This document shows, in pieces, positions 3,230 to 31,628 of a stretch of 57,738 nucleotides of DNA (the first letter of the stretch is position 1; every line of letters begins with the position of its first letter). The position numbers were made by a program, and so were the translations under genes. This DNA comes from an uncultured Sphingomonas sp. (GTDB lineage Bacteria; Pseudomonadota; Alphaproteobacteria; Sphingomonadales; Sphingomonadaceae). Where the stretch lies: the NCBI GenBank assembly GCA_913775025.1, contig CAJYJW010000343.1:1-57738 (forward strand), given 5' to 3'. The notes under the pieces were generated by a model. That model did no database searches, was not told the DNA's origin, and saw only the letters and a list, made by a program, of their open reading frames with translations.

Positions 3230-3250
3230 GATTTTCTCTTGCACTTCGTC

Positions 3251-3263
3251 TGCGATTGTCGCA
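3251..3263. promoter_or_regulatory. putative repressor operator (proximal cluster, site 3)
   Basis: TGCGATTGTCGCA, identical to the 2298 site. Confidence 0.75.
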
Positions 3264-3268
3264 GAACA

Positions 3269-9990: not shown

Positions 9991-9999
9991 GCCGGCTAG

Positions 10000-11200: not shown

Positions 11201-11428
11201 ATGAACGAGCCGATGTGCATGAAGCCGCGAGAGGCGGCGACGGCGTTGGGTATCTCCCGCGCCACCCTCTGTAACTGGATGGCTCAAGGCCGGATCGCAA
11301 CGTCCCGTGTCGGTGGCCGGCGACTGGTGCCTACGCAAGAGGTGCGCCGCCTCGCTGGCGTAGCCACGTGTTCCGCCGCGGCGGTTCACACATTGGCGCT
11401 AGTCCCACCAGACGAGACGGGGGAGTGA
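11201..11428 (+). CDS. small MerR/excisionase-type HTH DNA-binding protein
   Basis: MKPREAATALGISRATLCNWMAQGRIATSRVGGRRLVPTQEVRRL. Confidence 0.75.
   Translation: MNEPMCMKPREAATALGISRATLCNWMAQGRIATSRVGGRRLVPTQEVRRLAGVATCSAAAVHTLALVPPDETGE
11388..11406 (+). promoter_or_regulatory. late control motif copy 1 (upstream of terminase)
   Basis: ACACATTGGCGCTAGTCCC, 27 nt gap to the terminase small-subunit ATG (11434). Confidence 0.7.
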
Positions 11429-11433
11429 GCCTT

Positions 11434-11802
11434 ATGCCCGCAGGCCGCCCCAGCAAATACGATCCGAGCTACTGCCAAGAACTTGTCGACCACATGGCGA
11501 CGGGTGCGAGTGCCACGTCCTTCGCCGCTGAGATCGACGTAGACCGTTCTACGCTGACGGAATGGGCGGACAAGCATCCGGAATTTTCCCTAGCGCTATC
11601 GCGGGGAAAGGCGAAATGCGCCGCGTGGTGGGAGAAGATGGGGCGTTCATCTGCGTCCAACGGAACCGGTAACGCGACGATGATCGTGTTCGGCCTGAAA
11701 AACATGTCCGACGATTGGCGCGACAAGACAGAGACGCAGCACTCCGGCGAAGTCGCCGTGACTAGTGTGACGCGGACCATCGTCGATCCGCGAGAGCCGT
11801 GA
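11434..11802 (+). CDS. terminase small subunit
   Basis: MPAGRPSKYDPSYCQELVDHMATGASATSFAAEIDVDRSTLTEWADKHPEFSLALSRGK; GGGGGAG RBS. Confidence 0.85.
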   Translation: MPAGRPSKYDPSYCQELVDHMATGASATSFAAEIDVDRSTLTEWADKHPEFSLALSRGKAKCAAWWEKMGRSSASNGTGNATMIVFGLKNMSDDWRDKTETQHSGEVAVTSVTRTIVDPREP

Positions 11803-13094
11803 TGCCCGCCGCCGCCCGCCACATCGAGATCCCGACCGCCCGCGCTTTCCTGCCGCTGCTGGCCCCGGCGCGCTACAAGGGGGCGTGGGGTGGACGTGGC
11901 TCGGGCAAGAGCCATTTCTTTGCCGAGAAGCTGATCGACGATTGCCTGTACGAGCGCGGCATGACGGCGGTGTGTATCCGCGAGGTTCAGAAGACGCTCA
12001 AGACATCCTCCAAGCTGCTGATCGAGAACAAGCTCCAGCAGCTCGGCCTTGGCGAGCGCGACGGGTTCAAGGTGTTCCGCGAGGTGATCCAGACGCCGGG
12101 CGACGGGCAGATCATTTTCCAGGGCATGCAGGATCACACCGCCGAGAGCATCAAGTCGCTGGAGGGATTCAAGCGGGCGTGGTGCGAGGAGGCGCAGACC
12201 ATCAGCGCGAACAGCCTCATGCTGCTGCGTCCGACGATCCGTGCGCCGGGGTCGGAACTGTGGTTTTCGTGGAACGCGCGCCGCAAGACGGATCCGGTGG
12301 ACTTGATGCTGCGCGGCGCGGAGATCCCGACCGGAGCCGTGGTGGTGGAGGCGAACTGGCGCGATAACCCGTGGTTCACGGACGAGCTGGAGCAGGAGCG
12401 CCAGGACTGCATGCGCGCCGAGGCCGATCAGTACGGCCACATCTGGGAAGGCGAGTATCTGACGGTCGCGGCCGGCGCCTACTTCGCCAAGCAGCTTGCA
12501 CAGGCGCGCGCCGAACGCCGCATCGGCAAGGTGGCGGCGGATCCGCTGATGACGCTCCGGGCGGTATGGGACATCGGGGGCACGGGCGCAAAGGCGGATG
12601 CTACCGCAATCTGGATCGTTCAGTATGTCGGGCGGGAGATTCGCTTTCTCGACTATTACGAGGCGGTCGGGCAGCCGCTCGCCACGCATGTCGGCTGGCT
12701 GCGTGATAATGGCTACGGCAAGGCGCTGTGCGTCCTGCCGCATGATGGCGCGCAACACGACAAGATCCAGCAGACAACCTATGAAGGTGCGCTGCGTGAG
12801 GCGGGGTTCGAGGTGCGGGTGGTGCGCAACCAGGGCGCCGGCGCTGCCAATGCCCGCATCGAGGCGGCCCGCCGTCTTTTCCCTTCCATGCACTTCGACG
12901 AGGAGAAATGCTCAGGCGGGCTGGAGGCGATCGGCTGGTATCACGAGAAGCGCGACACCGATCGCAACATCGGCTTGGGGCCGGAGCATGATTGGTCCAG
13001 CCATGGCGCCGATGCCTTCGGGCTGGTGGCCGTCGCGCATGAGCCTCCGCAAGCTGCGCGGAAGATCGTTTACAATACTCGGGGCGTCGTCTGA
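11802..13094 (+). CDS. terminase large subunit (PBSX/terminase_3 type)
   Basis: RYKGAWGGRGSGKSHFFAEKLI (Walker A), RAWCEEAQTIS, nuclease-domain motifs. Confidence 0.9.
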   Translation: MPAAARHIEIPTARAFLPLLAPARYKGAWGGRGSGKSHFFAEKLIDDCLYERGMTAVCIREVQKTLKTSSKLLIENKLQQLGLGERDGFKVFREVIQTPGDGQIIFQGMQDHTAESIKSLEGFKRAWCEEAQTISANSLMLLRPTIRAPGSELWFSWNARRKTDPVDLMLRGAEIPTGAVVVEANWRDNPWFTDELEQERQDCMRAEADQYGHIWEGEYLTVAAGAYFAKQLAQARAERRIGKVAADPLMTLRAVWDIGGTGAKADATAIWIVQYVGREIRFLDYYEAVGQPLATHVGWLRDNGYGKALCVLPHDGAQHDKIQQTTYEGALREAGFEVRVVRNQGAGAANARIEAARRLFPSMHFDEEKCSGGLEAIGWYHEKRDTDRNIGLGPEHDWSSHGADAFGLVAVAHEPPQAARKIVYNTRGVV

Positions 13095-13249
13095 TGCCCG
13101 TTCAGATAGCCACCCCGCTCCTTTCACAGCCGACCCGGCCGGCGGCTGCAATGGGCATCCAGCGTCACGCGTCAACAGCGTGCGGGGACAGGCTGTGCAT
13201 GGGAGCGCTGATGGATGCCAACGGCCGAATTAATTCGAGGATCCTGTGA
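13094..13249 (+). CDS. hypothetical small protein
   Basis: 51-aa coupled ORF MPVQIATPLLSQPTRPAAAMGIQRH... Confidence 0.4.
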   Translation: MPVQIATPLLSQPTRPAAAMGIQRHASTACGDRLCMGALMDANGRINSRIL

Positions 13250-13470
13250 TGGCCGACGAACCCGAAACCCCCGCCGACGCGCAAGAGCCGGCACCCCCTC
13301 CCGAGCCCGACGCCACCCTCTCGCTGACGGCGGAATTGCTGGCCGGTGTGTGGACGCTCTACGCCCTCCCCGCGAACGGTGAGCGGCAGGCGCTCGGGGC
13401 GGGCCCGTCCGGGTCGGGCATCATGTTCCCGGTCAAGCTGCTGGACCGTCTTGTAAGTGAGCCGAGCTGA
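13249..13470 (+). CDS. hypothetical small acidic protein
   Basis: Coupled ORF MADEPETPADAQEPAPPPEPD... Confidence 0.5.
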   Translation: MADEPETPADAQEPAPPPEPDATLSLTAELLAGVWTLYALPANGERQALGAGPSGSGIMFPVKLLDRLVSEPS

Positions 13471-13667
13471 TGGTGAATGATCACATACTGGCCTTGATGG
13501 CCCAATATACCGCAGAAGCCGACGAGGCGGTACGGGATGCTCAACTGCTAGATGCGGAGGCCGCCATCATCGAGGCGCGTGCTGCCGGTTGCCGAGAGCA
13601 TGCCCAATTCCTGAGGGATTGCGTGGAAAAACTCCAGAGCGTGCTCCTGTATCAGGACGAACGCTGA
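13470..13667 (+). CDS. hypothetical protein
   Basis: Coupled ORF MVNDHILALMAQYTAEADEAVRDAQ... Confidence 0.5.
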   Translation: MVNDHILALMAQYTAEADEAVRDAQLLDAEAAIIEARAAGCREHAQFLRDCVEKLQSVLLYQDER

Positions 13668-16000
13668 TGGCGACCGCCCCCGACTTCGCGCTGAACGGCT
13701 GGGAGGAGCCTGAGGCCGAACGCGCCCGGATGACGCAGGAGGAGATCGTCTCGATCCTCCGCGAGCAGGAGCGCGCATCGGTCAACTTCCGCGACACCAT
13801 CCTTGCCGGGGAGCAGGCCGCAGCGCTCGACTTCTACGAGGCTGAACCGTTCGGCGACGAGCAGCCGGGGCGTAGCCAGGTCGTCGTGCCCGACGTGGCC
13901 GAGGTCGTGGATTACATGCAGATCAGCGTGTTGCGAACGGTCGCCAGCGCCGATCGCGTGGTCGAGTTCGAGCCCGGCGACACGGATCAGGTGCCCGACC
14001 TGCCGGAGCCGCCCGAGGCCCCGCAGATGCCGCAGGGCGATGTGCCGCCCGAGCAGCAGGCGATGATGGCGCAGGCGATGGCGCGCTATCAGGGCGAGAA
14101 GGCTGAGCACGACGCGGCGGTGGCTGCCTATCGGCGCTGGGAGAAGGGGCGGGACAAGGCGGCTGACGATGCCACGGCGGCGGTCAATCACATCTTCATG
14201 CGCCGGCAAAACGGTTACCGCATCCTGCTCGACTGGCTGCAATCGGGCCTGATCGAGAAGATCGGCATCGTGAAGACCGCATGCGTGACCGAGCGCAAAC
14301 GGGTCCGCCAGATGGGCACGGTATCCGCCGACGAGCTGGCCCTGATGGAGCAGGAGGGCGCGCCGCTCAGCAACGTTACCGACCGGGGCGACGGCACGTT
14401 CGATGTGGTGGTCGCCATCTGGCAGGACGTGAAGCGGTACAGGGACTATCCGATCCCGAGCGAGGAGTTCATTTTCCCGCCGCGTACGAAGGATGAGGAC
14501 GAGGCCAGATACCTCGCACATCGGGCGCGCAAGACGCTCTCTGATCTGGTGGAAATGGGTTTCGACCGCGAGAAGGTGGAGGCGCTGCCGACCGATGATG
14601 GCGTAAGCGAGGTCGATGACCAGCGCACTTGGGCACGATGGGGCGACGACAACCTGTCCGCCTATCAACGCGCCCCATCGATGCGCGAGGTGCTGCTGCT
14701 GGAGGAGTACGCCCGCCTCGATCTCGATGACGATGGCGTTGCCGAGCTGTGGCAGATCTTCCGCGTTGGCGATGTGATCCTTGATATGAACGAGGTGGAG
14801 GAAGCCCCGTTCGTCGTCTGGACCCCCTTCCCTCGCGCGCACCGCCTCGTCGGCAATTCGCTGGCCGAGAAGACGATGGACATTCAGCGCGTGGATAGCG
14901 TGCTGCTTCGGCAGGCGCTTGACGGCGTCTACATGACGAACAGCCCGCGAACGTGGCTCCCGCAGGAGTCGATGACCGAGGATACGATCGACGACCTGCT
15001 GACCGTCATCCCCGGCGGCATCGTGCGCGGACGCGGCTCTCTGCCGCCGCAGAAGCTCAACGACGCGTTCGACATTCAGAAGTCGCTCGGCATGCTGGAA
15101 TTCATGCAGGGGCAGCGCGAGACGCGCACCGGTATCACGCGTCTCAATCAGGGGCTCGACGAGGACACGATCAACAAGACTGCCACGGGCCAGGCCGCCT
15201 TGCAGGCGCAGGGCCAGCAGATGGAGGAAGCGGTCGCCCGCAACTTCGGCGAGGCGATGGGCCGGCTGTTCGCCAAGAAGCTTCGGCTGATGCGGGCCAA
15301 TGGCGAGCCGATCGCGATCAAGGTGGAGGGCTCCTACCGGCGCATCGATCCGACTACGTGGGACGACGACATGAACGTGGTCGTCCGCGTCGGCCTCGGC
15401 AGCGGGCGCAAGGAGCAGCGGATCGTCTATCGCGGCCAGATCGCTCAGCAGCAGGCAGAGGCATTGCAGGCTGGCCTCCCGATCGTCGATCCGGTGCGGA
15501 TCTACAAGAACGCGGCAGGCTATGTGCGGGATGCGGGGCTGGGCAATCCTGACGATTACTGGCTAGACCCCGAGAGCGAGGAGGCCAAGGCGATCGCGCA
15601 GGCCAAGCCGCCGCAGCAGGATCCGGCGCTGGTGAAGGTGCAGGGCGAACAGCAGCTTGCCGCGCAGAAGATGCAGGGCGAGGAGCAGCGGTCACAGCAG
15701 CAGATCGCGTTGTCGCAACAGGAGGCTGCGGCCAAGCTGGGAATCACTCAACGCGAGGGCGAGCAACGGCTCCGCTTCGACGCTGAGCGCGCTGCCATGG
15801 AGCAACAGCTCGCACGCGAGAAGGCCGAGTTCGAGGCGAACTTAGCAACAATGAAGGCTGATCGCGAATGGGAGCTCGCGCAGGCGCAGATGGCCCATGC
15901 TATGGAGATGGACCGGGTGCGGGCCGGGCACGCGCATGAGCAGGGCATGGAGAAGGCGCGGATGAGCGTGAACCGGCCCGGTGGGGATCTGGACAAATGA
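13667..16000 (+). CDS. portal protein (podovirus type, long coiled-coil C-terminus)
   Basis: About 778 aa between terminase and scaffold; RTGITRLNQGLDEDTINKTATG; Q/E/A-rich C-terminal helix. Confidence 0.85.
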   Translation: MATAPDFALNGWEEPEAERARMTQEEIVSILREQERASVNFRDTILAGEQAAALDFYEAEPFGDEQPGRSQVVVPDVAEVVDYMQISVLRTVASADRVVEFEPGDTDQVPDLPEPPEAPQMPQGDVPPEQQAMMAQAMARYQGEKAEHDAAVAAYRRWEKGRDKAADDATAAVNHIFMRRQNGYRILLDWLQSGLIEKIGIVKTACVTERKRVRQMGTVSADELALMEQEGAPLSNVTDRGDGTFDVVVAIWQDVKRYRDYPIPSEEFIFPPRTKDEDEARYLAHRARKTLSDLVEMGFDREKVEALPTDDGVSEVDDQRTWARWGDDNLSAYQRAPSMREVLLLEEYARLDLDDDGVAELWQIFRVGDVILDMNEVEEAPFVVWTPFPRAHRLVGNSLAEKTMDIQRVDSVLLRQALDGVYMTNSPRTWLPQESMTEDTIDDLLTVIPGGIVRGRGSLPPQKLNDAFDIQKSLGMLEFMQGQRETRTGITRLNQGLDEDTINKTATGQAALQAQGQQMEEAVARNFGEAMGRLFAKKLRLMRANGEPIAIKVEGSYRRIDPTTWDDDMNVVVRVGLGSGRKEQRIVYRGQIAQQQAEALQAGLPIVDPVRIYKNAAGYVRDAGLGNPDDYWLDPESEEAKAIAQAKPPQQDPALVKVQGEQQLAAQKMQGEEQRSQQQIALSQQEAAAKLGITQREGEQRLRFDAERAAMEQQLAREKAEFEANLATMKADREWELAQAQMAHAMEMDRVRAGHAHEQGMEKARMSVNRPGGDLDK

Positions 16001-16179
16001 GCGGAGGCGTTGAAACTTACGCGCGCAAGCTAGTTGGGCGGGGCTACGGCGCGGCGGCCGAAAAACTAGATGAGCAAGGCCGGTACCTCATTCCGGCTGA
16101 TATAGTCATGGGCTATGGTGATACGCCTGAATCCGCGATTGCAGACGCGTTGGCCAATCGACGGAGGCTAGGCCGATGA
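15997..16179 (+). CDS. hypothetical protein
   Basis: Coupled ORF MSGGVETYARKLVGRGYGAAAEKLDEQGRYLIP... Confidence 0.5.
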   Translation: MSGGVETYARKLVGRGYGAAAEKLDEQGRYLIPADIVMGYGDTPESAIADALANRRRLGR

Positions 16180-16478
16180 CCGTCGACGATCCCATCCGCC
16201 GGCAGCATCGCTGGCAAGCCTTCTACGAGGAAGAGGGTGGCCTTCGCGATATGCTCGGCGAGATGCGCGCCGCCTTTTTTCAGCGCATGTCCGCCGTCGA
16301 GCCGTGGGAGGTGGCGAAGCTTTCGAACCTCGCGCTGGCAGCGAAGCAGGTCGCTATGCTCGACACGGCGGTGCTCGCGATCATCGCGGACGGCAAGACG
16401 GCGCAGGCGGCACAGCGGCATGCTGATCAGGTCGCATCGATTCCGGATTACAAGCGGCGGTGGGTGAACGGCGGGTAG
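16176..16478 (+). CDS. hypothetical phage protein
   Basis: Coupled 100-aa ORF. Confidence 0.6.
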   Translation: MTVDDPIRRQHRWQAFYEEEGGLRDMLGEMRAAFFQRMSAVEPWEVAKLSNLALAAKQVAMLDTAVLAIIADGKTAQAAQRHADQVASIPDYKRRWVNGG

Positions 16479-16482
16479 CCCA

Positions 16483-16499
16483 ACACATTGGCGCTAGTC
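16483..16499 (+). promoter_or_regulatory. late control motif copy 2 (upstream of scaffold/capsid)
   Basis: ACACATTGGCGCTAGTC, 31 nt gap to ATG 16531. Confidence 0.7.
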
Positions 16500-16530
16500 G
16501 TCACATCCGAAGCAGCGCCATGTCGGCGGC

Positions 16531-17520
16531 ATGGGCACCGAAACCGACACGACCATGACCGCTGCGATGGACGCCTTTGCCGCGCTCGATGCGCCGCAGG
16601 ACGAGCCTCGCGAGGATCAGGACGACGAAAGCGGCAATCTCGCCGCTGACGACGCCGGAGATGGTGACACAGACACGCCGGAGGGTGATGAGCCCTCCTC
16701 GCCCGACGAGCAGGATGACGAACCGGAAGCCCCGGCCATCGATCCGCCTGCGAGTTGGGACGCCGAGGCCAAGAAGGTCTTCGCCAGCCTCCCACCCGAG
16801 GCACAGCGCATTGTCGCTGATCGGGAGAGCGCCCGCGAGAGGACCATCAACGCCCGGATGAGCGAAGCGGCCACCGCCCGGAAACAGGCTGAGGCTGCCT
16901 CCTCGCAAGTCGCCAATCTTCATCGCACCTATGCGGAGGAGATGGCGCAATACGCGCAGGCATTCGAGCCCCAGCGGCCGGACTATGGCCTTCTGGCCAC
17001 CGACCCGCAGGCATATGCCCAGCAAGCAGCGATGTACGAACAGGCGATGGCCCAGCGAGCCGAGTTCTCGCAGCGCGCCCAGGCGGCACATCGGCAGGCG
17101 GAAGCCATCCAGCACCAGCAGGAGCGACAGGCCGCGCAGGAGTTCCACCAGACCCTCACGGAAGCGTGGGGCGACGAATGGACCGATCAGGGGAAGCGGC
17201 AGGCCTTGGTCGCCCGTCTCGAACCGATCGCGCTGGAACTCGGATACGGTGACCGGATCGGCGATGCCGATGCGCTCGACCATATCGCGCTGCGCAAAGC
17301 TGCCGACTGGAAGGACAAAGCCGCCAAGTGGGATCAGCTTCAGGCATCCCGGATGGAGAACGTCCGCGCCGCCAAGCTGAAGCCACGGGTCCAGACGCCG
17401 GGAGCAGCACCCCAGAAGGGCGCGGCGAAGGCGCAGGGCTTCAATGATTCGATGAGCCGGCTGCGGAAATCGGGCGACGTTCGCGACGCCGCCGCGGCCT
17501 TCGGAAATCTCAGCAGGTGA
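16531..17520 (+). CDS. capsid scaffolding protein
   Basis: Acidic N-terminus, Q/A-rich coiled coil, located between portal and capsid. Confidence 0.75.
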   Translation: MGTETDTTMTAAMDAFAALDAPQDEPREDQDDESGNLAADDAGDGDTDTPEGDEPSSPDEQDDEPEAPAIDPPASWDAEAKKVFASLPPEAQRIVADRESARERTINARMSEAATARKQAEAASSQVANLHRTYAEEMAQYAQAFEPQRPDYGLLATDPQAYAQQAAMYEQAMAQRAEFSQRAQAAHRQAEAIQHQQERQAAQEFHQTLTEAWGDEWTDQGKRQALVARLEPIALELGYGDRIGDADALDHIALRKAADWKDKAAKWDQLQASRMENVRAAKLKPRVQTPGAAPQKGAAKAQGFNDSMSRLRKSGDVRDAAAAFGNLSR

Positions 17521-17555
17521 GCGGCACTAGCCCCGCCTGAATCAGGACAATCGCA

Positions 17556-18518
17556 ATGGCCGTTCCTTCGAACACCATCCAGACGATGACCCGATCGGGT
17601 AATCGCGAGGATCTCTCCGACATCATCTACAACATCTCGCCGACCGAGACGCCGTTCGTCACCGCGATCGGGCGGGAAAGCGCGAGCGCCGTCTACCACG
17701 AGTGGCAGACCGATGCGCTCGTATCCGCCAACGCCAACAACGCCGCGATTCAGGGCGACGATCTGTCGAATGAGAATCGCCCGGCAACGACCCGGCTCGG
17801 CGACTACACGCAGATCTTTACCAAGGTCGTCGGCACCTCCACCACGCAGCAGGCGGTGAAGGCGGCGGGCCGGTCGAACGAGCACAACTACCAGCTCGCC
17901 AAGGCCGGCAAGGAACTGAAGCGCGACATGGAGGCCCGTTATACGGGCAACTATGCGGCGGTGCCTCCGGCGGCGGGCACGGCGGGGCAGTCGGCGGGCG
18001 CGCTGGCCTATATGCGGACCAACGCGTCTCGCGGCGCGGGTGGCGCCAACCCGACGCTTTCCGGCGGCACGACGGGCTATCCGGTGGCTGCGGCGACGAA
18101 CGGCACGCAGCGGGCCTATACCGAGGCGCTGCTGAAGTCGGCGATCGCGCAGGCATGGAATGCTGGCGGCGAACCCTCGCTTGTCATCACCTCGCTCGCG
18201 CAAAAGCAGATCGCCGCCACCTTCGCCGGCCTGGCGCAGCAGCGGCGCGAGAGCGGCGACAAGAAGATCACCATCGTCGCGGGCGCGGATATCTACGTGT
18301 CGGACGTGGGCGAGCTTCAGTTCGTGCCGGACCGGTTCTGCTCGCCGCGGGATGCCCTCATCATCGATCCCGACATGTGGGCCATCGCCACGCTCGATCC
18401 GATGCAGCGCCGCAAGCTGGCGGTAACGGGCCTCGCCGATCGGGACGCGATGTATACCGAGCAGACGCTGGTCTGTCGCAACGACGGCGCGTCCGCTGTC
18501 ATCGCCGACCTCACCTAA
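17556..18518 (+). CDS. major capsid protein (SU10/DUF5309-like, HK97 fold)
   Basis: MAVPSNTIQTMTRSGNREDLSDIIYNISPTETPFVTAIGRESASAVYHEWQTDALVSANANNAAIQGDD. Confidence 0.85.
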   Translation: MAVPSNTIQTMTRSGNREDLSDIIYNISPTETPFVTAIGRESASAVYHEWQTDALVSANANNAAIQGDDLSNENRPATTRLGDYTQIFTKVVGTSTTQQAVKAAGRSNEHNYQLAKAGKELKRDMEARYTGNYAAVPPAAGTAGQSAGALAYMRTNASRGAGGANPTLSGGTTGYPVAAATNGTQRAYTEALLKSAIAQAWNAGGEPSLVITSLAQKQIAATFAGLAQQRRESGDKKITIVAGADIYVSDVGELQFVPDRFCSPRDALIIDPDMWAIATLDPMQRRKLAVTGLADRDAMYTEQTLVCRNDGASAVIADLT

Positions 18519-18576
18519 CCGCCGGATCTGGCCGGGGCGCGACAGGGCGCTCCGGCTTCATCGCAGGAGAGCAGAT

Positions 18577-19065
18577 ATGCGTAAATCGAAGCAGACCGAC
18601 ACGTCCGACCCCGAAGTCGGCAATTCGCAGGGCAAGGATGAATTCCCCGTCAAGGACCTGCCGCCGGCCAATCCGCTCGGCGAGCCGGTGGAAGACGTGG
18701 AACAGTATCCGAACACGTCGGAGGCCGGCAAGCAGGCTGCTGCGCTCGGCCTCGAAACCGAAGAGAATGATGGCCGCTTCCCGGCGGGCGAGACGATCGT
18801 CGAGCACCCGCTGAGCCCGACCGACACCAACCCCAACCCGCACGGCACGCGCTCGCAACTGGAGATCACCGACACGGTGGTCGATAGCGACACGAAGGTC
18901 GCGCATCGCCAGGCGCCCGAGGAAGGCGACGTGGAGGTGGAAGGCACGCAGGACGAGCCGGTTCACCTCGGCGACGGTCGTACGCTTGCCAAGGGCGATC
19001 GTACGAAGGTTCGCAAGGACCTGCTCAAGGACGAGAACCTCAAAGGCAAGGTGAAGCGGGTCTGA
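18577..19065 (+). CDS. hypothetical structural-region protein
   Basis: 162-aa acidic/polar ORF after the capsid gene. Confidence 0.6.
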   Translation: MRKSKQTDTSDPEVGNSQGKDEFPVKDLPPANPLGEPVEDVEQYPNTSEAGKQAAALGLETEENDGRFPAGETIVEHPLSPTDTNPNPHGTRSQLEITDTVVDSDTKVAHRQAPEEGDVEVEGTQDEPVHLGDGRTLAKGDRTKVRKDLLKDENLKGKVKRV

Positions 19066-19298
19066 TGGCTGTCCGGCTCATCTCTCGTGATGTCGTTGAG
19101 GTGGATTCTCCACTGTACGGCAAACACAAGCGCACCGATTTCGTCTTCATCGGGCGCTTCTGGGAGGGGCCGGAAGCTGCCGGCGAGACTGGTCGCTATG
19201 TGAACGAGCGGTGCAGCGTCAGTCATGCTCGCGGGCATTGGGCGAATTGCAGCGCCGAATACGCCGAGCGCCACGGCTTGGCGAAGATGGTCGCATGA
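19065..19298 (+). CDS. hypothetical protein
   Basis: Coupled ORF. Confidence 0.5.
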   Translation: MAVRLISRDVVEVDSPLYGKHKRTDFVFIGRFWEGPEAAGETGRYVNERCSVSHARGHWANCSAEYAERHGLAKMVA

Positions 19299-19618: not shown

Positions 19619-19627
19619 AGGAGCGAC

Positions 19628-22718: not shown

Positions 22719-23533
22719 TCACTCTTGCGCTCGCCCTCACCACCCTGACCGCTACCCCTGCCACCGCCACCGCCGTCATCGCATCTGCCAAATGCGGCGA
22801 CACGGTGCGGCTGGCGGCTGGCGACTATGGCCGCTTCACGGTCAACCGGCGCGAGTGCAGCCCCCGGCTGACGATCCGGGCCGAGAAGGCGCGGTTCCAG
22901 TATATCTCGCTGACCCGCGTGAAGGGTCTGACGCTCTACGGCGGCACGGTCACGCCGGATGCCACGATCACGGTGCCCGGCTACGGCGTGCAGTTGCAGA
23001 TGTCGTCCGAGGTCAGCCTGTTCGACCAGACGATCACGGGCGGGCTCCGGGCGATCGCCGTGGACCGCTCGTCCGGGGTGCTGATCCGCCGGGCCACGAT
23101 GCGCGGGCAGATGGTGGACGGCATCAACATCGCCCTATCGCAAAAGGTAACGGTGCAGGCATCCACCTGCGCAGACTTCACGCCGCGCCCGGACGATCAC
23201 CCCGACTGCGTGCAGATGTGGAGCCGGCCCGGCGGGATCACGCAGGACGTGTTGATCGAGGGCAACAGCGCCACCGGCGCGATGCAGGGGTTCGCTGGCT
23301 TCAATCACGTCACGAACGGCGTGGACGATGGCGGCTACGATCGCATCACCATCCGGGGCAACACCGTGCGGACCAGCTTTCCGCAGGGGATCGCGCTGTA
23401 CGACTGCCGCAAATGCTCGATCACCGGCAACACCGTCGAGACGCTGTCCGGCGCGCGCTGGCGGACCACGATCAACGCGATCGGCGGCACCACGGCGGTG
23501 ACGGGCAACAGCATCGGGGCGATGCCGAAGTGA
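22715..23533 (+). CDS. exported right-handed parallel beta-helix protein
   Basis: Signal-like MITLALALTTLTATPATATA; repeats VLIRRATMRGQMVDGINIA, ITIRGNTVRTSFPQGIALYDC. Confidence 0.65.
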   Translation: MITLALALTTLTATPATATAVIASAKCGDTVRLAAGDYGRFTVNRRECSPRLTIRAEKARFQYISLTRVKGLTLYGGTVTPDATITVPGYGVQLQMSSEVSLFDQTITGGLRAIAVDRSSGVLIRRATMRGQMVDGINIALSQKVTVQASTCADFTPRPDDHPDCVQMWSRPGGITQDVLIEGNSATGAMQGFAGFNHVTNGVDDGGYDRITIRGNTVRTSFPQGIALYDCRKCSITGNTVETLSGARWRTTINAIGGTTAVTGNSIGAMPK

Positions 23534-23567
23534 TCTAGGATACCGCAGCGGATGATCCAGGTTGCAG

Positions 23568-23586
23568 ACACATTGGCGCTAGTCCC
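23568..23586 (+). promoter_or_regulatory. late control motif copy 3 (upstream of tail module)
   Basis: ACACATTGGCGCTAGTCCC, 28 nt gap to ATG 23615. Confidence 0.7.
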
Positions 23587-23614
23587 GAGAGGGTAGTGTC
23601 GCCACGCCTTGCGG

Positions 23615-24265
23615 ATGGCACTTCAAAGCTATTCGGATCTGAGGGCTGAGATTGCGGATTGGCTTGGAGACGCGAGCCTATTCGACAAAGCTCCGACATT
23701 CATCCGTCTTGCGGAGGATGAGCTCCGTACAGACCTCGTGATGCCGGAAATGGAGGTGACGTACACCGCCAATACGAGCGGATCGTTTTCGCTGCCGTCC
23801 GACTTCGACAGCCTACGGGCCATCGCCCTAAATGGTACGACTCCCCAGAGCCTCAAACAAATATCATTGACGGCATTTTATGACATGTATCGGGCAGACG
23901 GCGGTAACGGCGGTCCGCCTTCGTATTTCGCCATCGACGCCGGGCAGGTGTTTTTATGGCCCACGCCAGCGTCTTTCTCGGCGTTCACAGTTGCTTATCG
24001 CGCGAAGCTGCCGAGCCTTTCCGACGCGGTCCCGACAAATTGGGCGCTTGCACAGTATCCCACGCTGTATCTCTACACTTGCCTGCTCCACGCAGAAGCA
24101 AGGGGCTGGAACGTCGAGCGGCTTCCATTAATCCAAGCTTACGTCGAAGATCGCAAGGCCAAGATCAATGCCGCCGGCCAGCGCAAACGATATGGCGGTC
24201 GCTTGGTCGCGTCCCCGCCTGTCGTCGAGAACGTCGGCCGCACCCGGTACGCGTTCAAATGGTGA
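23615..24265 (+). CDS. tail adaptor / head-completion protein (SU10 adaptor-like)
   Basis: MALQSYSDLRAEIADWLGDASLFDKAPTFIRLAEDELRTDLVMPEMEV. Confidence 0.75.
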   Translation: MALQSYSDLRAEIADWLGDASLFDKAPTFIRLAEDELRTDLVMPEMEVTYTANTSGSFSLPSDFDSLRAIALNGTTPQSLKQISLTAFYDMYRADGGNGGPPSYFAIDAGQVFLWPTPASFSAFTVAYRAKLPSLSDAVPTNWALAQYPTLYLYTCLLHAEARGWNVERLPLIQAYVEDRKAKINAAGQRKRYGGRLVASPPVVENVGRTRYAFKW

Positions 24266-25689
24266 TGACCCGCGTCATCTTCGGCGAGTTTCAGCCTGAC
24301 CAGCCGGCCAATCTCAGCGAAGGGCTGACGGTGGCGGACGGCTGCTTCGCGATCAAGAACGGTTATGCGCCAATCGGCAGCTTCACGCCCACACAAAACG
24401 GCACGCTGACAGGGGGCGCCTATGGCGCGGGGGCCTACCGTTATGCGGGACAGACCTATGTCTTCGCCGCGAATCCGGGGGCGATTTATCGCTACACCGC
24501 GACAGGATACGTCACCCTCGCGACGGGCCTTAGCAACGGTCTTGGGGTACGGTTTGCCCCCTACTCATCGCTGATGCTGGCGACGAACGGGGCCGACGTG
24601 ATCCGCAAGTTCGATCCGGCGGCGCCGGGGACGATGGCCAACCTTGGCGGCTCGCCCCCAACGGCTCGTTACATCGGCGTCGTGGGGGGCTTTACTGTTC
24701 TGGCTTACGCCTCGAACGTCTCCACCCGGGTAGCTTGGTCGGATCAAGGCAATCCCGAGAATTGGACCGCCGGCGGCGCTTCGGAGGCCGGGGTCGCCGA
24801 CATGGCGACCGGTGGCGATATAACCGGCTTTGTCGGCGGCGAGTATGGCCTGATCTTTCAGGAGAACCGTGTCGTTCGCATGTCTTATACTGCGTCCGAT
24901 ACGATCTGGCAGTTCGATGAGATCGCCACGGATATCGGCTGCGTCCTGCCCGGCTCGATCGCGACCTGGGGCAAGCTCACGTTCTTCATGTCGAACCGTG
25001 GCTTCATGGTCTGCGATGGCTCGACGGTGACGCCGGTGGGTGCCGAGAAAATCGATCGCTGGTTCCTAAGCGTTGCGAACCGTCAGTATTTCGATCGGGT
25101 AAGCGCGGTGATCGATCCACGGAACGCGCTCTATATCCTGACGATGCCCACCGCCTACCCGGCGAGCATGCTGCTGCTTTATTCCTACACGCTGGGGCGC
25201 TGGTCCACCGCTTCTACGCGCGTCGAGTATATTGCTTCCGGGATCGCGCAGGATGCCACGCTGGAAGGCATAAGCGCGATGTACCCGAACCTCGATGCCA
25301 TGCCGCTGTCGTTGGATAGCCCCCTTTTCCGGGGCGGTACGCCACTGCTGCTCATGTTCGACGACAGTCATCGGCTGGGCGCATTGAACGGCCCTCCCCT
25401 ACCCGCAGCCTTCGCCGACGCGCAGCGCGAATTGATCCAGGGCCGGCGGGCCCGCATCCGGTCCGTTCGTCCGATCACTGATGCCGCCGCACCCGTCGTC
25501 ACGATCGCAGGCGGCAACAGCTTTGCCGCAGCGCTGACGCCGACGACATACATGGGCCGACAGCCGAACGGGCGCCTTCCGACGCGAGAGAACTGGAACC
25601 TCGTACAGGTGTCGCTTGGCATCCCCTCGCAGCCGTGGACCTATGCGCAGGGTTTCGATCTTGAGATCGAGCAAGGGGGTACGGCATGA
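24259..25689 (+). CDS. tail/nozzle-type structural protein
   Basis: Internal start MVMTRVIFGEFQPDQPANLSEGLTVADGCFAIKNGYAPIGSF...; beta-rich. Confidence 0.65.
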   Translation: MVMTRVIFGEFQPDQPANLSEGLTVADGCFAIKNGYAPIGSFTPTQNGTLTGGAYGAGAYRYAGQTYVFAANPGAIYRYTATGYVTLATGLSNGLGVRFAPYSSLMLATNGADVIRKFDPAAPGTMANLGGSPPTARYIGVVGGFTVLAYASNVSTRVAWSDQGNPENWTAGGASEAGVADMATGGDITGFVGGEYGLIFQENRVVRMSYTASDTIWQFDEIATDIGCVLPGSIATWGKLTFFMSNRGFMVCDGSTVTPVGAEKIDRWFLSVANRQYFDRVSAVIDPRNALYILTMPTAYPASMLLLYSYTLGRWSTASTRVEYIASGIAQDATLEGISAMYPNLDAMPLSLDSPLFRGGTPLLLMFDDSHRLGALNGPPLPAAFADAQRELIQGRRARIRSVRPITDAAAPVVTIAGGNSFAAALTPTTYMGRQPNGRLPTRENWNLVQVSLGIPSQPWTYAQGFDLEIEQGGTA

Positions 25690-25913
25690 GCCTGCCGCCC
25701 CTGATCCGCGAAAGCGAGCCGACGGACGAGGGATGGCGCCGGAAGGCACGTGATCTCCTGAACGCCGTTGTCCGCCGCCTCATGGGCCAAGGGGCGACCG
25801 ATGCGCGCCCCCTGAACCCGACGGTTGGTACGCTATTCTACGACACTACGCTCGGCCGCCCGATCTGGTGGAACGGCACCGGCTGGCGCGATGCGGCGGG
25901 GGGTGCTGTATGA
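25686..25913 (+). CDS. hypothetical structural protein
   Basis: Coupled ORF; TVGTLFYDTTLGRPIWWNGTGWRDAAG fibre-like motif. Confidence 0.6.
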   Translation: MSLPPLIRESEPTDEGWRRKARDLLNAVVRRLMGQGATDARPLNPTVGTLFYDTTLGRPIWWNGTGWRDAAGGAV

Positions 25914-26269
25914 CCTACGCCTATGGTCATTGGCGCGATGCCTTCGCGGCGGTGATGGACCCTGCGCTCTACACCATCGAATGGCTGGACCGGCGGATCG
26001 AGGACGGTTCGGCGATGTGTGTCGGAAACGAGACGGCCGCGATCGTGTTCGAGTTCCGCGAATATCCCACCGGAGCCCGTGATCTGCATGGGCTGCTGGC
26101 GGCAGGCTCGCTTGAGGAGATCCTGGGCAGCCTGATCCCTTGGGCCGAGCACTTCGCCCGCAAGTCTGGCGCGATCGGCGCGATTATCGAGAGCCGACCG
26201 GGGTGGATGAAGGCGCTAGAGGGGCGTGGGTACGCGCCCTACCAGACCGCCATTCGAAAGGTGCTGTGA
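25910..26269 (+). CDS. hypothetical phage protein (possible acetyltransferase-like fold)
   Basis: Coupled ORF MTYAYGHWRDAFAAVMDPALYTIEWLDRRI... Confidence 0.5.
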   Translation: MTYAYGHWRDAFAAVMDPALYTIEWLDRRIEDGSAMCVGNETAAIVFEFREYPTGARDLHGLLAAGSLEEILGSLIPWAEHFARKSGAIGAIIESRPGWMKALEGRGYAPYQTAIRKVL

Positions 26270-27705
26270 TGGGCGTTTCGTCGAGTAAGAGCAAATCCAA
26301 GAGCGAGCCATACGCTGCAGCCACGCCCTACATCAATGCGGGCCTGTCAGCGTCTAATGACGTGTTCCAGCAGCAGCAGCCCCAGTTGCAGCAGCTCGGC
26401 GCGACGGCGTTGGCCGGCTATAACGCGATCGCGCCGGGGGCCTACTCGCCCAGCGCCTTCGTCAAGAACGCTCAGGCAACCGCGGCGGGGATCGCGAACG
26501 GCCAAGGGGAGAGTCCCGGCGCGTCGGTCTATTCCAGCGTGATGGGCGGCAGCAACCCGGCGCTAGGCGCGCTTTCCGCTTTGCAGGGCGGCGGGACGAA
26601 CGGCGCAAGGTCGGGTTATGCCGGCTTTGCCGACAATGGCGGCGGCATCTATGCGCCTGGCGTCGCGGCGTCGATGATCGGCGCGCAGGCGGTGACCGGA
26701 TCGAATATCGGGGCATCCAATGTCACGGCGAGGGATGTGGCCGCACCGGACGGCGAGGCGGCGACGCGCCAGTTCTACGCTGATACGCTCGGCGGGCGGT
26801 ACCTCGACGGCAATCCGTATATCGACGGGATCGCGCAGCAGGCCACGGACGCGGCGACCAAGGCGGCCAACCAGCGCTTCGGCGCGGCGGGGCTCGGTGC
26901 CGGGCTATCGTCAGCTTATACCGATGTGCTTTCGAAGAACGTCGCCAACGCCAGCAATCAGGTTCGCTATCAGAACTATAGCGATGAGCGGTCACGCCAG
27001 CTTGCGGCGGCGGGGCAGTCGGACGCGCTGTATAATGCGGATGCGAACCGTCTCCTGACGGCGGCAACTGGCAACGCCGATCGTGATCTGGCGGCACAAT
27101 CGACGAACGCCGGCAATGCGCTTACGGCGGCGCGCGCCAATCAGGACAATGCGTTTGGAGTCTCACAGGCAAATGCGGCGAACGCCCTGGCGGCGGCGCA
27201 GGCGAACCAGAACGCCGGCCTTGCTGCCAGCCGCGACAACGCCAGCAACTCTCTCACAGCGCAGCAGGCGAACCTCGGCGCGCGTCTGTCTGGCCTGGCG
27301 GGGCTGTCGGGTATCGATCAGCAGCAGTTCGCGAACCAGCTCGGCGCCGCCAACGCGCTCGGGTCTGCCTATGCGCAGGATGCTTCGACGCGGCTGGGTG
27401 CGGCCAGCGCCGCCGACGCGCAGCGCAACGCGCAGGTCCAGCAGCAGTTGGCGGCGCTCGGGCTGACGGGCTCGCTGGAGGATGCAGGCTATGCCGGGAT
27501 CAACCCCGCACTGAACCTGTTGCAGGCTAGTGCCGCCATCCCGTGGTACGGTGTGAATGCCCTGGGCGGCTCGCTGAACACGTTGGCTGGGCGGTATGGG
27601 ACGACGACGCAGACGCAGAGCGGCAACCTCGGCGGGCAGCTTCTTGGCATCGGCGGTAGCGTGCTGGGCGGGTGGGCTAGCGGCGGCTTCGGAGGCAATA
27701 AATAA
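26269..27705 (+). CDS. internal virion/tail protein, Ala/Asn-rich with three 22-aa repeats
   Basis: MGVSSSKSKSKSEPYAAATPYINAGLSASNDVFQQQQPQLQQLG...; repeats encoded at 27106-27303. Confidence 0.6.
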   Translation: MGVSSSKSKSKSEPYAAATPYINAGLSASNDVFQQQQPQLQQLGATALAGYNAIAPGAYSPSAFVKNAQATAAGIANGQGESPGASVYSSVMGGSNPALGALSALQGGGTNGARSGYAGFADNGGGIYAPGVAASMIGAQAVTGSNIGASNVTARDVAAPDGEAATRQFYADTLGGRYLDGNPYIDGIAQQATDAATKAANQRFGAAGLGAGLSSAYTDVLSKNVANASNQVRYQNYSDERSRQLAAAGQSDALYNADANRLLTAATGNADRDLAAQSTNAGNALTAARANQDNAFGVSQANAANALAAAQANQNAGLAASRDNASNSLTAQQANLGARLSGLAGLSGIDQQQFANQLGAANALGSAYAQDASTRLGAASAADAQRNAQVQQQLAALGLTGSLEDAGYAGINPALNLLQASAAIPWYGVNALGGSLNTLAGRYGTTTQTQSGNLGGQLLGIGGSVLGGWASGGFGGNK

Positions 27706-28310
27706 TGGCGATGTTTGGCTGGAAGAAGCGGTTGGAGCGGGAGGGGATCTATTCAACGCCGCCCTACGCACCGGAGATACAATCCGATCCAAGGCAACGC
27801 GAGACTCCCATAGGACGAAGCAGCACAGGACGCGCGATCGCCGGCTACCTTGGCGACGCCTTGGCGCAGATAGGCGGCATGAAGCCAATCTACGCACCTG
27901 CCATGGCGCTCCGTCATCAGGAGGAGCGCGAAGACGCGGCGGCGCAAGCCGAGCGCGAGGCTGCGGCCAGCCAGCAGCGTGCCGTTCCGCTTGGTAATGG
28001 CGGTTTCGGCACGTGGAGTCCGTCTGGCGGATTGCAGATCCTGCGCGAACCGACCCCCGATACGCCTGCCGTCCCCGCCCTTCAGCAGAATTTCGAATGG
28101 ATGAAGAGCCTGCCGCCTGAGGACCAGAAGCTCGCCGCGACCATGCTGCCGGGCTATGCCTTCACGCCCGCCGGGCTCGCCACATCTGCCCAGCGCGCCG
28201 GCGCCGTGGCGGAAGCGGCCGCTGTCGCCCGCGCCCGTCACCGCGCTCCGCCTGCGGCCGCCCGATCCAAGCCCATGTCGCTCCCCGGCGGCTTCATCCT
28301 GGACAACTGA
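27705..28310 (+). CDS. hypothetical virion protein
   Basis: ORF MAMFGWKKRLEREGIYSTPPYAPEIQSD..., abuts upstream stop. Confidence 0.6.
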   Translation: MAMFGWKKRLEREGIYSTPPYAPEIQSDPRQRETPIGRSSTGRAIAGYLGDALAQIGGMKPIYAPAMALRHQEEREDAAAQAEREAAASQQRAVPLGNGGFGTWSPSGGLQILREPTPDTPAVPALQQNFEWMKSLPPEDQKLAATMLPGYAFTPAGLATSAQRAGAVAEAAAVARARHRAPPAAARSKPMSLPGGFILDN

Positions 28311-28311
28311 T

Positions 28312-28854
28312 ATGACCGAATTTCGCGAAGGGCAGACCGCGACCAACCCTAAGACGGGGCAGAAGATCGTCTTTAAAGGCGGACAATGGGTGTCGGCCGG
28401 CGGGGCGATGCCTGCTGCGGGCGGCGGGATGTTCGGTGGCGGGCGGGCGCCCACGGCGGCACAGGCTGCCGCAGCAAGCGCGCGTCAGCAGAACCTCACA
28501 GCCCTCGCTGCGAAATATGCCGAGGTGAAGGGCATGTACGATAAGAACCTCAAGGGCGTCGGCCCGGGTTCGCTTCTTGAATACCTCCCCCTGCCCGCGA
28601 ACAAGGCGTTTGACAGCGCCGCCGCTGGCATGTCCGACCTCGCCATGGCGGCGTTCCGGGTGCCCGGCGTCGGCGCGCAGTCGGACGCGGATCAGCGGAA
28701 CTTCATGCGCGCGAACGAGCCTCATGCAGCGGACCAGGATCAGCAGATCGAGGCGAAGCTGGGCAACATCCGCAACCGCATCAAGGCGGCCGGCGTGCCG
28801 ATCCCCGGGGAAGCCGACGCGGCTGCCGGCTGGAAAATCACGAGGATCAAGTAG
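28312..28854 (+). CDS. hypothetical virion protein
   Basis: MTEFREGQTATNPKTGQKIVFKGGQWVSAGG. Confidence 0.6.
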   Translation: MTEFREGQTATNPKTGQKIVFKGGQWVSAGGAMPAAGGGMFGGGRAPTAAQAAAASARQQNLTALAAKYAEVKGMYDKNLKGVGPGSLLEYLPLPANKAFDSAAAGMSDLAMAAFRVPGVGAQSDADQRNFMRANEPHAADQDQQIEAKLGNIRNRIKAAGVPIPGEADAAAGWKITRIK

Positions 28855-28856
28855 CG

Positions 28857-31421
28857 ATGGGCAAGTATCGTATCGATCTTCCTGACGGATCCGCGTTCGA
28901 GATCGAGGGGCCGGATAACGCTACCGACGATCAGCTTAAGGCCTTTGCGCAGCAGGCGATCAACAAGCAGCGCCCGAACGCGCATTATGCGGAACCGATC
29001 GTTCAGCGGACGGGGACGGGCGCGGACATTCTGAACCGCGCCGACTCTGTCGAACCGGATATAAAATCAGTGCTGATGCAGGGCGGCACATTCGGTCTGT
29101 CGGACGAGATCATGGGCGGTGCCGGCGCATTGGTCGATGCGGTCATCTCGCCATTCTCCGATAAAGTCGATTTCGATCCGGTTGCCTCATACAAGGCTTA
29201 CCGCGATCGAGAACGCGCCGTCGTGGAGGCTACGCGCAAGAGCAGCCCGTGGCTTTCCACCGCAAGCGAGTTAGTCGGCGGGCTCCTGACCGGTGGTACG
29301 GCGGCTAAAGGGCTATTGCAGGGCGCTGGCACGTCGGGGTTGGGAGCAGCCGTTCGACAGGCGGCGAAGGCGGGCGCGACGCAGGGCGCGGTGTCCGGCT
29401 TCGGCTATGGCGAGGGCGGGAACGGCAGCATCGCGGGTGCCGGCGTCGGCGCTGGCCTGGGCGGTGCGCTCGGCGCGGCAATCCCGGCCGCAGCGCGCTA
29501 TATCGGTGGCACGATCGGCGCTGGCGTCAACTATCTGCGGCCACAGAATGGTATCGGCCGCGAGCTGGTGGCTAGGGCGTTGCGCGATGACGCTGTGACG
29601 CCTCGGATGGCGGCGGAAGCTATCGCCGCGGCGAACGAGCGAGGCGTCCCGCTGGGCATGATGGACATGGGCGAGAATACCCGTGCTCTCGCTGGAGCCG
29701 TTGCCAGGGCGCCGGGTGTCAGTCGTCGTCTTGTCCGCCAAGCCGTTGGCTCGCGCCAGATGGCGCAGGGTGAGCGCGTTCGCGGGGCGGTCGAGCGGGA
29801 CTTGGGGCAAATCACCAATACACCGCTAGAAGCCGAGTTGGCGCAACAGCGCGCGAGAGATGTTGCGCGCGAAGCGACGCAAGCTGCTCAGGCTAGAGTT
29901 GTACAGGCCGGCGGGCGTATCGGTCCTATCACTGACCGCTTAGCGTCGGGCGGTTATGCACGTGAAGCGTTTGACAACGCTTACCGAGGTGCGAAAGCTA
30001 GATCGTCCGAGGCATATTCCGCCAATGCGTTGCAAAATCCGCAGCCTATCGAGATCCCGGCAGAATACTTCGCTCAGGACTTGCGAAGCGCTGCAGACGC
30101 TTTTTATGGAGATGGCGGTGGCGAAATACCGGGCGCTCTGGCGCGCATCATTGACGATGCGGCCGCCCCCGACGCCACCACGCGAACGCTAACGAATATT
30201 GACCGTCGGCTCGCTGACTTTGCTGGCCAATCGAGAATGGCGGGCGGAAATTCGGATGCCGCGTTCGCGGACAGGTTGCGGATAAGTCTGAGTGACTTTG
30301 CTGATCGGGCTGCCCCAAGTGAGTATCGGGACGCCTTACGTAACGCAAAGGCCGTGAGGGCAGAGCAAGGTCGTGTATTCGAAACGCGCGACCTTCCCCG
30401 AGCCTTTGCCCGTGACCAGTACCGGAACCCGCTCGTGGGCGACACATCAATCCCGCAAAGGCTTCTGCGCCCCGGTGCGGCGGGCGGAGACACCGCAGAC
30501 TCGCTGATTGCCGCTGTTGGTCCAGAACAAGCGGAGGCGGTCATCCGGCAGGAGCTACGGCGACAAGTCGACGAAATGGCTAACGTCACGCCCGCGAGCG
30601 CGGAAGGACTATCGGTACGATACGGAGACCTATTACAACGCTTTCCGGCGTTGCGGGCGGATATACGCGAACTAGGGCGTACTGCCGCAGGCGCTGCCGA
30701 CGCAATGCGAGCAGAAAGCTTAGCTGGGCGACCTGGATCTACTGCGATCGAACGCGGTGCAGCCGCAATCGGCAAGTCGGCACAAGAGATCGAGCGAGAA
30801 GTCGCCAGCCTTTCTGCCTCAGATTTACCGCAATATGGACAGGGCTATCTTAACGGTCTCGCAGACAATTTGGAGCGGCGGGTCGCCGGAGGCGATAAAG
30901 TCAACACCCTCCTTGGCACTCCAAGAAAACAGAAGGCGGTCAGCGGGATGTTTGGCGGGGGGCGGAATTTTCAGCGCTTCACTGATACTCTTGCTGATGA
31001 AGCCACCGCCAACGAAACCTATCGCTCGATCATGACCGGCTCGCCAAGCGCCGATCGCCTCGCAGCCGATGCCGGCGTAACCGACCTATCTCTTCTTGAG
31101 GACGTAGGAGGCAAGGCGCTTAAGGGGGCGGCCAATGGCGGTTTGGCTGGGGCCTTCGCTGAACTCTGGAGTGCCGTTCGCGACACCAAACGGTTCGGCG
31201 CCGGCGCGACTGGACAGCGCGCGCGCGAGGATGCGGCTGCGCTCCTCTCGGAAGTCGATCCCGTAGCGCTGGGTCAGAGTTGGCGAGAGGCTACGCGCCA
31301 AGCTGCGGGCCGCCGCATCCGCGAGCGCTTGGGACGCAGGCGGGCGGTAAACGCCGGAATGTTCGGGGGCCGCGCCCTCGGCGGGATCAGCGGGTACGCG
31401 CTCCGGCCGGCCGACGAGTGA
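28857..31421 (+). CDS. large internal virion / DNA-ejection protein
   Basis: 854 aa; MGKYRIDLPDGSAFEIEGPDNATDDQLKAFAQQAINKQ; Ala/Gly-rich middle region. Confidence 0.65.
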   Translation: MGKYRIDLPDGSAFEIEGPDNATDDQLKAFAQQAINKQRPNAHYAEPIVQRTGTGADILNRADSVEPDIKSVLMQGGTFGLSDEIMGGAGALVDAVISPFSDKVDFDPVASYKAYRDRERAVVEATRKSSPWLSTASELVGGLLTGGTAAKGLLQGAGTSGLGAAVRQAAKAGATQGAVSGFGYGEGGNGSIAGAGVGAGLGGALGAAIPAAARYIGGTIGAGVNYLRPQNGIGRELVARALRDDAVTPRMAAEAIAAANERGVPLGMMDMGENTRALAGAVARAPGVSRRLVRQAVGSRQMAQGERVRGAVERDLGQITNTPLEAELAQQRARDVAREATQAAQARVVQAGGRIGPITDRLASGGYAREAFDNAYRGAKARSSEAYSANALQNPQPIEIPAEYFAQDLRSAADAFYGDGGGEIPGALARIIDDAAAPDATTRTLTNIDRRLADFAGQSRMAGGNSDAAFADRLRISLSDFADRAAPSEYRDALRNAKAVRAEQGRVFETRDLPRAFARDQYRNPLVGDTSIPQRLLRPGAAGGDTADSLIAAVGPEQAEAVIRQELRRQVDEMANVTPASAEGLSVRYGDLLQRFPALRADIRELGRTAAGAADAMRAESLAGRPGSTAIERGAAAIGKSAQEIEREVASLSASDLPQYGQGYLNGLADNLERRVAGGDKVNTLLGTPRKQKAVSGMFGGGRNFQRFTDTLADEATANETYRSIMTGSPSADRLAADAGVTDLSLLEDVGGKALKGAANGGLAGAFAELWSAVRDTKRFGAGATGQRAREDAAALLSEVDPVALGQSWREATRQAAGRRIRERLGRRRAVNAGMFGGRALGGISGYALRPADE

Positions 31422-31432
31422 TGCGCGGTCGG

Positions 31433-31540
31433 TCATCCTGCTAGATTCCATCCGACGCGAAGAAGTGCCCCGACCACAATAATGACAGCCGCCGCCAGCA
31501 TCACCAGCCAACAACCTATCCCTTCGCCAGCTCCGCTCAT
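31433..31540 (-). CDS. putative 35-aa single-pass membrane peptide
   Basis: Minus frame MSGAGEGIGCWLVMLAAAVIIVVGALLRVGWNLAG*. Confidence 0.35.
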   Translation of the reverse strand: MSGAGEGIGCWLVMLAAAVIIVVGALLRVGWNLAG

Positions 31541-31580
31541 AGCCCAACCTACCCCGCCCTCGCCCCCTTTTCAATCGCCA

Positions 31581-31599
31581 ACACAATGGCGCTAGTCCC
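31581..31599 (+). promoter_or_regulatory. late control motif copy 4 (upstream of fibre/lysis module)
   Basis: ACACAATGGCGCTAGTCCC (one mismatch), 29 nt gap to ATG 31629. Confidence 0.7.
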
Positions 31600-31628
31600 C
31601 TCGCCCAACCCATCGGCATATCCTCGGA

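Follow-up and report, generated by a model that had tools for sequence, protein, structure and literature searches.

A dispersed repeat in a sphingomonad prophage probably forms the upstream half of a set of leaderless late promoters

Phages P2 and 186 divide their morphogenesis regions with a small set of late promoters that respond to the phage zinc-finger activator Ogr/Delta (B), and the P2 site is a TGT-N12-ACA sequence centred near -55. In the case of the ArpU and RinA families and of lambda Q, a small regulator gene sits at the boundary between early and late genes, immediately ahead of terminase. The site of the phage Mu activator C is an interrupted palindrome. The Mu late promoters (lys, I, P, and mom) are used by host RNA polymerase, have non-consensus -10 and -35 elements, and carry the C site at or upstream of -35 (PMC4461284). 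Repeated motifs confined to one strand are also described from LUZ24-like phages, in which they mark site-specific single-strand nicks (PMC11780129, PMC3517423), and 88% of these nick sites are spread through coding sequence (PMC11780129). In the open-access papers that we searched, we found no description of the motif reported here and no account of late-gene control in the prophages of sphingomonads or of alphaproteobacteria generally, a subject that seems little explored.

The window, by which we mean the whole 57,738-nucleotide stretch of DNA analyzed here, is a segment of a sphingomonad chromosome with a prophage at ~1-35.7 kb followed by host genes. The contig edge cuts off the left end of the prophage, and further regulators may therefore be missing; two integrase-bearing contigs examined for the missing end yielded nothing useful. 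Upstream of the late genes are genes for an S24-type repressor, Cro-like and CII-like proteins, recombination functions, and a DUF5906 protein, while the late gene set consists of terminase, portal, scaffold, capsid, virion proteins, a fibre-like protein, and an endolysin. The capsid protein is related to those of LUZ24-type Pseudomonas podoviruses and of many environmental phages, and the MCP matches include Pseudomonas phages DL54 and JB8. Between the DUF5906 gene and the gene at 10325 there is also an array of a different 20-nt repeat, CTAGAGTGCAAGACGCTTTG, with four copies at 9996-10210 spaced 88, 19, and 88 nt apart.

The original prediction placed four copies of ACACATTGGCGCTAGTCCC ahead of the first genes of the late modules, and all four are indeed present on the + strand, the coding strand as claimed (Table 1). 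The copies at 11388 and 23568 are exact, that at 31581 has a single mismatch, and that at 16483, which ends in GT, agrees at 17/19 positions. The predicted gaps of 27, 31, 28, and 29 nt between motif and ATG are correct (46, 48, 47, and 48 nt from the motif start), as is the proposed division of the late region, since each copy stands at the start of one block (terminase, scaffold, tail-adaptor, or fibre). Copy 1 is contained in the HTH gene at 11201, at its 3' end, and copies 2-4 directly follow the preceding gene. At ≤3 mismatches, ACACATTGGCGCTAGTCCC did not occur in any of 100 dinucleotide shuffles. A search of the whole genome (3.57 Mb, 346 contigs) found the motif 17-mer at 0-1 mismatch in this contig only, so the motif is not common genome-wide, and the four stray 3-mismatch matches elsewhere in the host genome were comparable to the control. 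Allowing ≤4 mismatches over 15 nt, there are 17 look-alikes in the window, and a start codon 34-36 nt past the TA is found only in the four. The copies thus form a same-strand repeat upstream of late-block first genes, as in a late promoter set. On the minus strand at 34167-34178, ATTGGCGCTAGG has 11 bases in common with the motif; it lies within a coding frame, has neither a second element nor a start codon, and is probably a chance occurrence.

Table 1. Features of the prophage late region, with positions in the window.
Feature	Position	Strand	Remarks
Candidate late activator, 101 aa, predicted all-helical	10866-11171	+	homologues just upstream of terminase in other sphingomonad prophages
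Weaker fifth motif copy, ACATGTTGGCGGTAGTCCC, 3 mismatches	11140-11158	+	in 3' end of 10866 gene, before HTH gene 11201
HTH_17 protein, 75 aa, secondary candidate regulator	11201-11428	+	
Late promoter 1 (putative), upstream element	11388-11406	+	precedes terminase small subunit, ATG 11434, GGAG Shine-Dalgarno present
Promoter 1, predicted -10-type A	11424	+	+24 from motif TA, 10 nt before ATG
Terminase small subunit, first gene of block 1	11434-11802	+	
Terminase large subunit	11802-13094	+	
Late promoter 2 (putative), upstream element	16483-16499	+	precedes scaffold gene, ATG 16531, no Shine-Dalgarno
Promoter 2, predicted -12/-11 CA	16519-16520	+	
Head scaffolding protein, first gene of block 2	16531-17520	+	
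Late promoter 3 (putative), upstream element	23568-23586	+	precedes tail-adaptor-like gene, ATG 23615, no Shine-Dalgarno
Promoter 3, predicted -12/-11 CA	23603-23604	+	
Virion structural/tail-adaptor-like protein, first gene of block 3	23615-24265	+	
Late promoter 4 (putative), upstream element, one mismatch	31581-31599	+	precedes fibre-like gene, ATG 31629, no Shine-Dalgarno
Promoter 4, predicted -12/-11 CA	31617-31618	+	
Fibre-like protein, first gene of block 4	31629-32432	+	no family match; named by sequence and place
Endolysin, after fibre-like gene	32886-33464		

The motif had been said to fit neither the sigma54 nor the sigma70 consensus, and we agree on both points. The bases found 10 nt after the GG are AC, CA, GA, and CT, as opposed to GG-N10-GC (-24/-12), and when a TTGACA-like -35 and a TATAAT-like -10 were sought 16-18 bp apart, the sequences located 17 nt after TTGGCG were GACGGG, AGCAGC, GTGTCG, and CCCATC. 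A T7-type single-subunit RNA polymerase (PF00940) had no match in the host genome and none in the control genomes either, so that this control was uninformative. The sequences around the copies had also been called unrelated, which is true except for an A located 24-25 nt past the motif TA and 10-11 nt ahead of the ATG. Counted from the motif TA, this A lies at +24, +25, +24, and +25 and the ATG at 34, 36, 35, and 36 in copies 1-4, and the corresponding -12/-11 dinucleotides read GA, CA, CA, and CA. A second core-promoter element at fixed spacing is strong in the relatives described below, whereas the window has only the A, without a conserved T and with a one-base wobble.

Most genes of the prophage have at least a partial Shine-Dalgarno sequence, but none is found at three of the four block-first genes compared with 1/34 other phage genes (Fisher p 0.002), the copy 1 gene being the one that keeps it. 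This absence suggests that the three genes are expressed from leaderless mRNA, which would put the motif at about -48 to -28. The sole other phage gene lacking a Shine-Dalgarno is the Cro-like gene at 3275, which adjoins the putative CI operators; since it begins right after a palindromic repeat, it may be leaderless as well.

Although the original prediction looked to related phages for further copies of the motif, the window sequence itself was not found there; instead, variant repeats with the same geometry were. Exact or near matches to the window motif in 401 family genomes and in viral contigs were scattered chance matches only, and the closest virion relatives (L011-L017, MCP 80-89%) lack it; in three of these relatives (G404, G405, and G409) sigma70-like promoters, as judged by eye, apparently abut terminase. 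A repeat search in TerL relatives returned mostly host repeats and coding repeats. The loci with a homologue of the 10866 protein before terminase were more informative, as five of six have a repeat of their own, TGACGGCGGTAA. When the pattern GACGGCGGTAA-N30-34-ATG was scanned across the 401 family genomes, clusters of 4-5 matches within ~10-24 kb were found in G372, G077, G322, G247, G176, and G365, with only scattered matches elsewhere. The eight genomes with the strongest 10866 homologues include five of these six, and the sixth, G365, has a diverged one, in a co-occurrence test that was framed, and its thresholds chosen, after looking. The fixed-offset repeat finder, run on single 19-kb pieces, did not list the TGACGGCGGTAA arrays because there were too few copies per piece.

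The six TGACGGCGGTAA prophages hold 40 copies of the GACGGCGGTAA core, 26 of which are followed, 42-45 nt from the G of GACGG, by a start codon (one site at 40 nt, with a GTG two bases ahead of an ATG, was left out of this count), and 24 of the 26 genes so headed have no Shine-Dalgarno-like 4-mer. They include genes for the terminase small subunit, a portal fused to Acb1, and DUF2213 and DUF4054 proteins. These prophages are myovirus-like, of a different virion type from the window prophage, to which they are otherwise unrelated; the repeat-bearing prophages share a virion family, and therefore their copies are not fully independent. With the copies aligned on the motif, an A is seen at offset 32 in 36/40, with T (23) or C (12) as the base before it, and in viral contigs with ≥2 copies the A is present at 28/30 sites compared with 28/108 singleton look-alikes (p 1e-11). 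If this A is read as -11 of a -10 element, then +1 falls at offset 43, on the ATG. A seventh prophage (G245; L358, L521) uses CCAGCGTCGGTAA, with six copies, one of them degenerate; five have the TA at an unchanged offset, and in the remaining one it is shifted downstream by a single base. Two Sphingomonas prophages of the window type, L243 (from 9575) and L288 (from 9584), carry an identical 18-nt CGACTTTCCTCCCTAAAA located 52 nt before the terminase region, in both cases in the 3' end of the 10866 homologue. The T/C-A element is located 23-24 nt past the motif TA in both the TGACGGCGGTAA and CCAGCGTCGGTAA variants, and a TA occurs exactly 23-24 nt after the upstream TA in five of six CCAGCGTCGGTAA-type copies and at both the L243 and L288 terminase sites. 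Where the start codon lies further off, as in L521 and in G365 at 6473, a Shine-Dalgarno appears, yet the A keeps its +24 spacing from the motif TA; at L521:11123, for example, the start codon is distant, a Shine-Dalgarno is present, and the TA position is unchanged. We would therefore write the putative promoter code as a variable block, STA[A/G], 23-24 nt, T/C-A, and ATG. An upstream block that varies by lineage while the spacing and TA stay constant is what would be expected of a phage factor that recognizes the block, with host RNA polymerase supplying the rest.

The weak fifth copy in the window offers a connection between these variants. It reads TGTTGGCGGTAG, identical to the TGACGGCGGTAA of other prophages at 9/12 positions, and in G372 (one mismatch) and G077, too, the 10866 homologue contains a motif copy at its 3' end, ahead of terminase. 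Given this match and the same placement, the window motif appears to have diverged within the same family as these variants, with the weak copy as an intermediate.

The 10866 protein itself has no significant match in Pfam or PHROGs, although homologues are present in other genomes of the family. It is the only one of the 38 window phage proteins to match 9/10 loci fetched around these homologues, and in 6/10 the homologue is located just before terminase, ≤~1.3 kb upstream of the large subunit gene (L351, L352, L354, L355, L356, and L358); the same holds for the window-like phages L243 and L288. An AlphaFold model (six sequences, pLDDT 87.7) has five helices, including a WRxxRRW helix. Compared against the PDB and viral models, it gave no match below E 1, and thus binding of DNA or polymerase by this protein stays putative. 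Homologues of the NWRxIxRW type mostly accompany TGACGGCGGTAA, with the exception of G365, which combines the TGACGGCGGTAA motif with a homologue whose putative recognition helix is very different, indicating that motif and protein type track imperfectly. Overall, we regard the 10866 protein as the likely factor reading the motif. The HTH proteins at 3967 and 11201, which had been put forward for this role, are not the best candidates, as it is the 10866 protein that recurs across the repeat-bearing prophages.

That the sites act as promoters, where transcripts start, and what the activator is and how it works are our inferences from sequence comparison. With good though not complete confidence, we propose that the motif marks leaderless late promoters that consist of a phage-specific activator site in the -35 region and a minimal -10; the probable reader is the 10866 protein together with host RNA polymerase. 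The repeats would be the upstream halves of four late promoters, to which a phage-made regulator, most likely the 101-aa protein, would bind at about -48 to -28. It would replace the -35 contact and recruit or activate host RNA polymerase, which would melt the DNA at a minimal -10 that is essentially T/C-12 A-11. Transcription would begin at the ATG or within ~1 base, in which case the head, tail, and fibre blocks would each have a first gene that is translated from leaderless mRNA and needs no Shine-Dalgarno. The four repeats appear to belong to an undescribed promoter family that is common to unrelated prophages and accompanied by a small protein without a matched fold.

This would work much like late control in Mu or P2, with several late promoters, one phage activator, and the host polymerase, and we do not claim membership in either system. 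Mu likewise has four late promoters, and here too we propose an activator site in the -35 region. However, the Mu site is an interrupted palindrome whereas the window motif is asymmetric, and predicted leaderless starts and a bare T/C-A -10 set the promoters described here apart. No Mor/C-family match was found in Pfam/PHROGs for 3967, 10866, 11201, or other early genes, a scan of part of the proteins of a prophage whose end is missing. As in P2 and 186, a small late promoter set divides the morphogenesis region, but here the conserved block is asymmetric and lies at about -38, unlike the TGT-N12-ACA dyad near -55. The block does not contain TGT-N12-ACA and no Ogr match was found among the proteins scanned, and we rejected assignment to the Ogr/Delta system. 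The 10866 gene has the same position just upstream of terminase as the genes of ArpU, RinA, and lambda Q, but it has no sequence match to these families and would serve several promoters, not one.

Several other explanations for the motif deserve consideration. The same leaderless promoters might have a different phage reader, which we consider unlikely but by no means negligible; candidates are the HTH_17 protein, the protein at 3967, and some regulator or sigma-like factor encoded past the end of the contig. The HTH_17 gene immediately precedes terminase and is located between the weak copy and copy 1, the protein at 3967, which resembles CII with a weak E-value, has a homologue in L354, G365 breaks the link between 10866 and the motif, and the prophage is truncated on its left. 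On the other hand, HTH_17 relatives were found in neither viral contigs nor phage records, and 10866 alone among the 38 window proteins recurs in repeat-bearing prophages. There is very little chance, in our estimation, that the motif acts in RNA as a 5'-UTR element for translation or antitermination, even though its fixed distance from the start codon and the three genes without a Shine-Dalgarno could be read in this manner. The -10-like A is tied to the motif and not to the start codon, as it remains at +24 in L521 and G365, which fits DNA recognition with a transcript start downstream of the motif. Of the options originally offered, therefore, the 5'-UTR element is unlikely, since the predicted transcript begins at the ATG, downstream of the motif, while the promoter with a phage-specific activator site gains support from independent prophages with a homologous putative regulator, which have other repeats at the same distance and share the -10-like element.

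A repressor site, either a CI operator or a stoperator-like silencer keeping late transcription off in the lysogen, seems similarly improbable. The stoperators of mycobacteriophage L5 are asymmetric, in one orientation, and dispersed near gene starts, all of which the motif shares with them, but an operator needs neither a fixed distance to the ATG nor a second element. Furthermore, the repeat on either side of the S24 repressor gene is a different one, the palindromic TCTGCGATTGTCGCAGA (2296, 2331, and 3249; spanning 2296-2347 and 3249-3265), the copies of which are likely the operators of this repressor; with the repressor region carrying TCTGCGATTGTCGCAGA instead, we rejected the motif as a CI operator or stoperator. 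We give least credence, and hardly any, to the motif as a mark of site-specific single-strand nicks. The related capsid protein, with its DL54 and JB8 matches, and a repeated motif on one strand recall LUZ24-like phages, but the window motif differs in sequence and occurs only at the putative promoters, all copies being at a fixed distance from start codons unlike the nick sites spread through coding sequence. The known motif WACTRTGAC is not in the window; neither TACTRTGMC nor WACTRTGAC has a copy in the prophage part, and a single WACTRTGMC is located in host DNA at 37906.

Beyond the leaderless late promoters of the window, we suggest tentatively, and with somewhat more doubt than conviction, that proteins like 10866 constitute a novel family of phage transcription factors, of an unrecognized helical fold, which replace the -35 contact and read lineage-specific blocks at leaderless late promoters in podovirus-like and myovirus-like sphingomonad prophages, the late switch having been swapped between unrelated phages. 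With a readable promoter code, sequence alone would suffice to mark late operons in many prophages. The code comes with a candidate regulator outside Pfam and PHROGs and with the prediction that the mRNAs of major structural genes are leaderless when translated. The four upstream blocks with one geometry would also be natural variants on which the redirection of host RNA polymerase by a small phage factor could be studied. Two further observations concern structural genes in other genomes. A portal (PF06381) with a C-terminal Acb1 anti-CBASS domain (PF23474) is encoded at L355:11446-13377 and L358:10298-12172. In addition, relatives of the capsid gene in G172, G027, G112, and G217 (loci L092-L094, L098, and L107-L110) are seemingly split, with residues 1-31 or so encoded ~370-500 nt from the rest, as if by an insertion.
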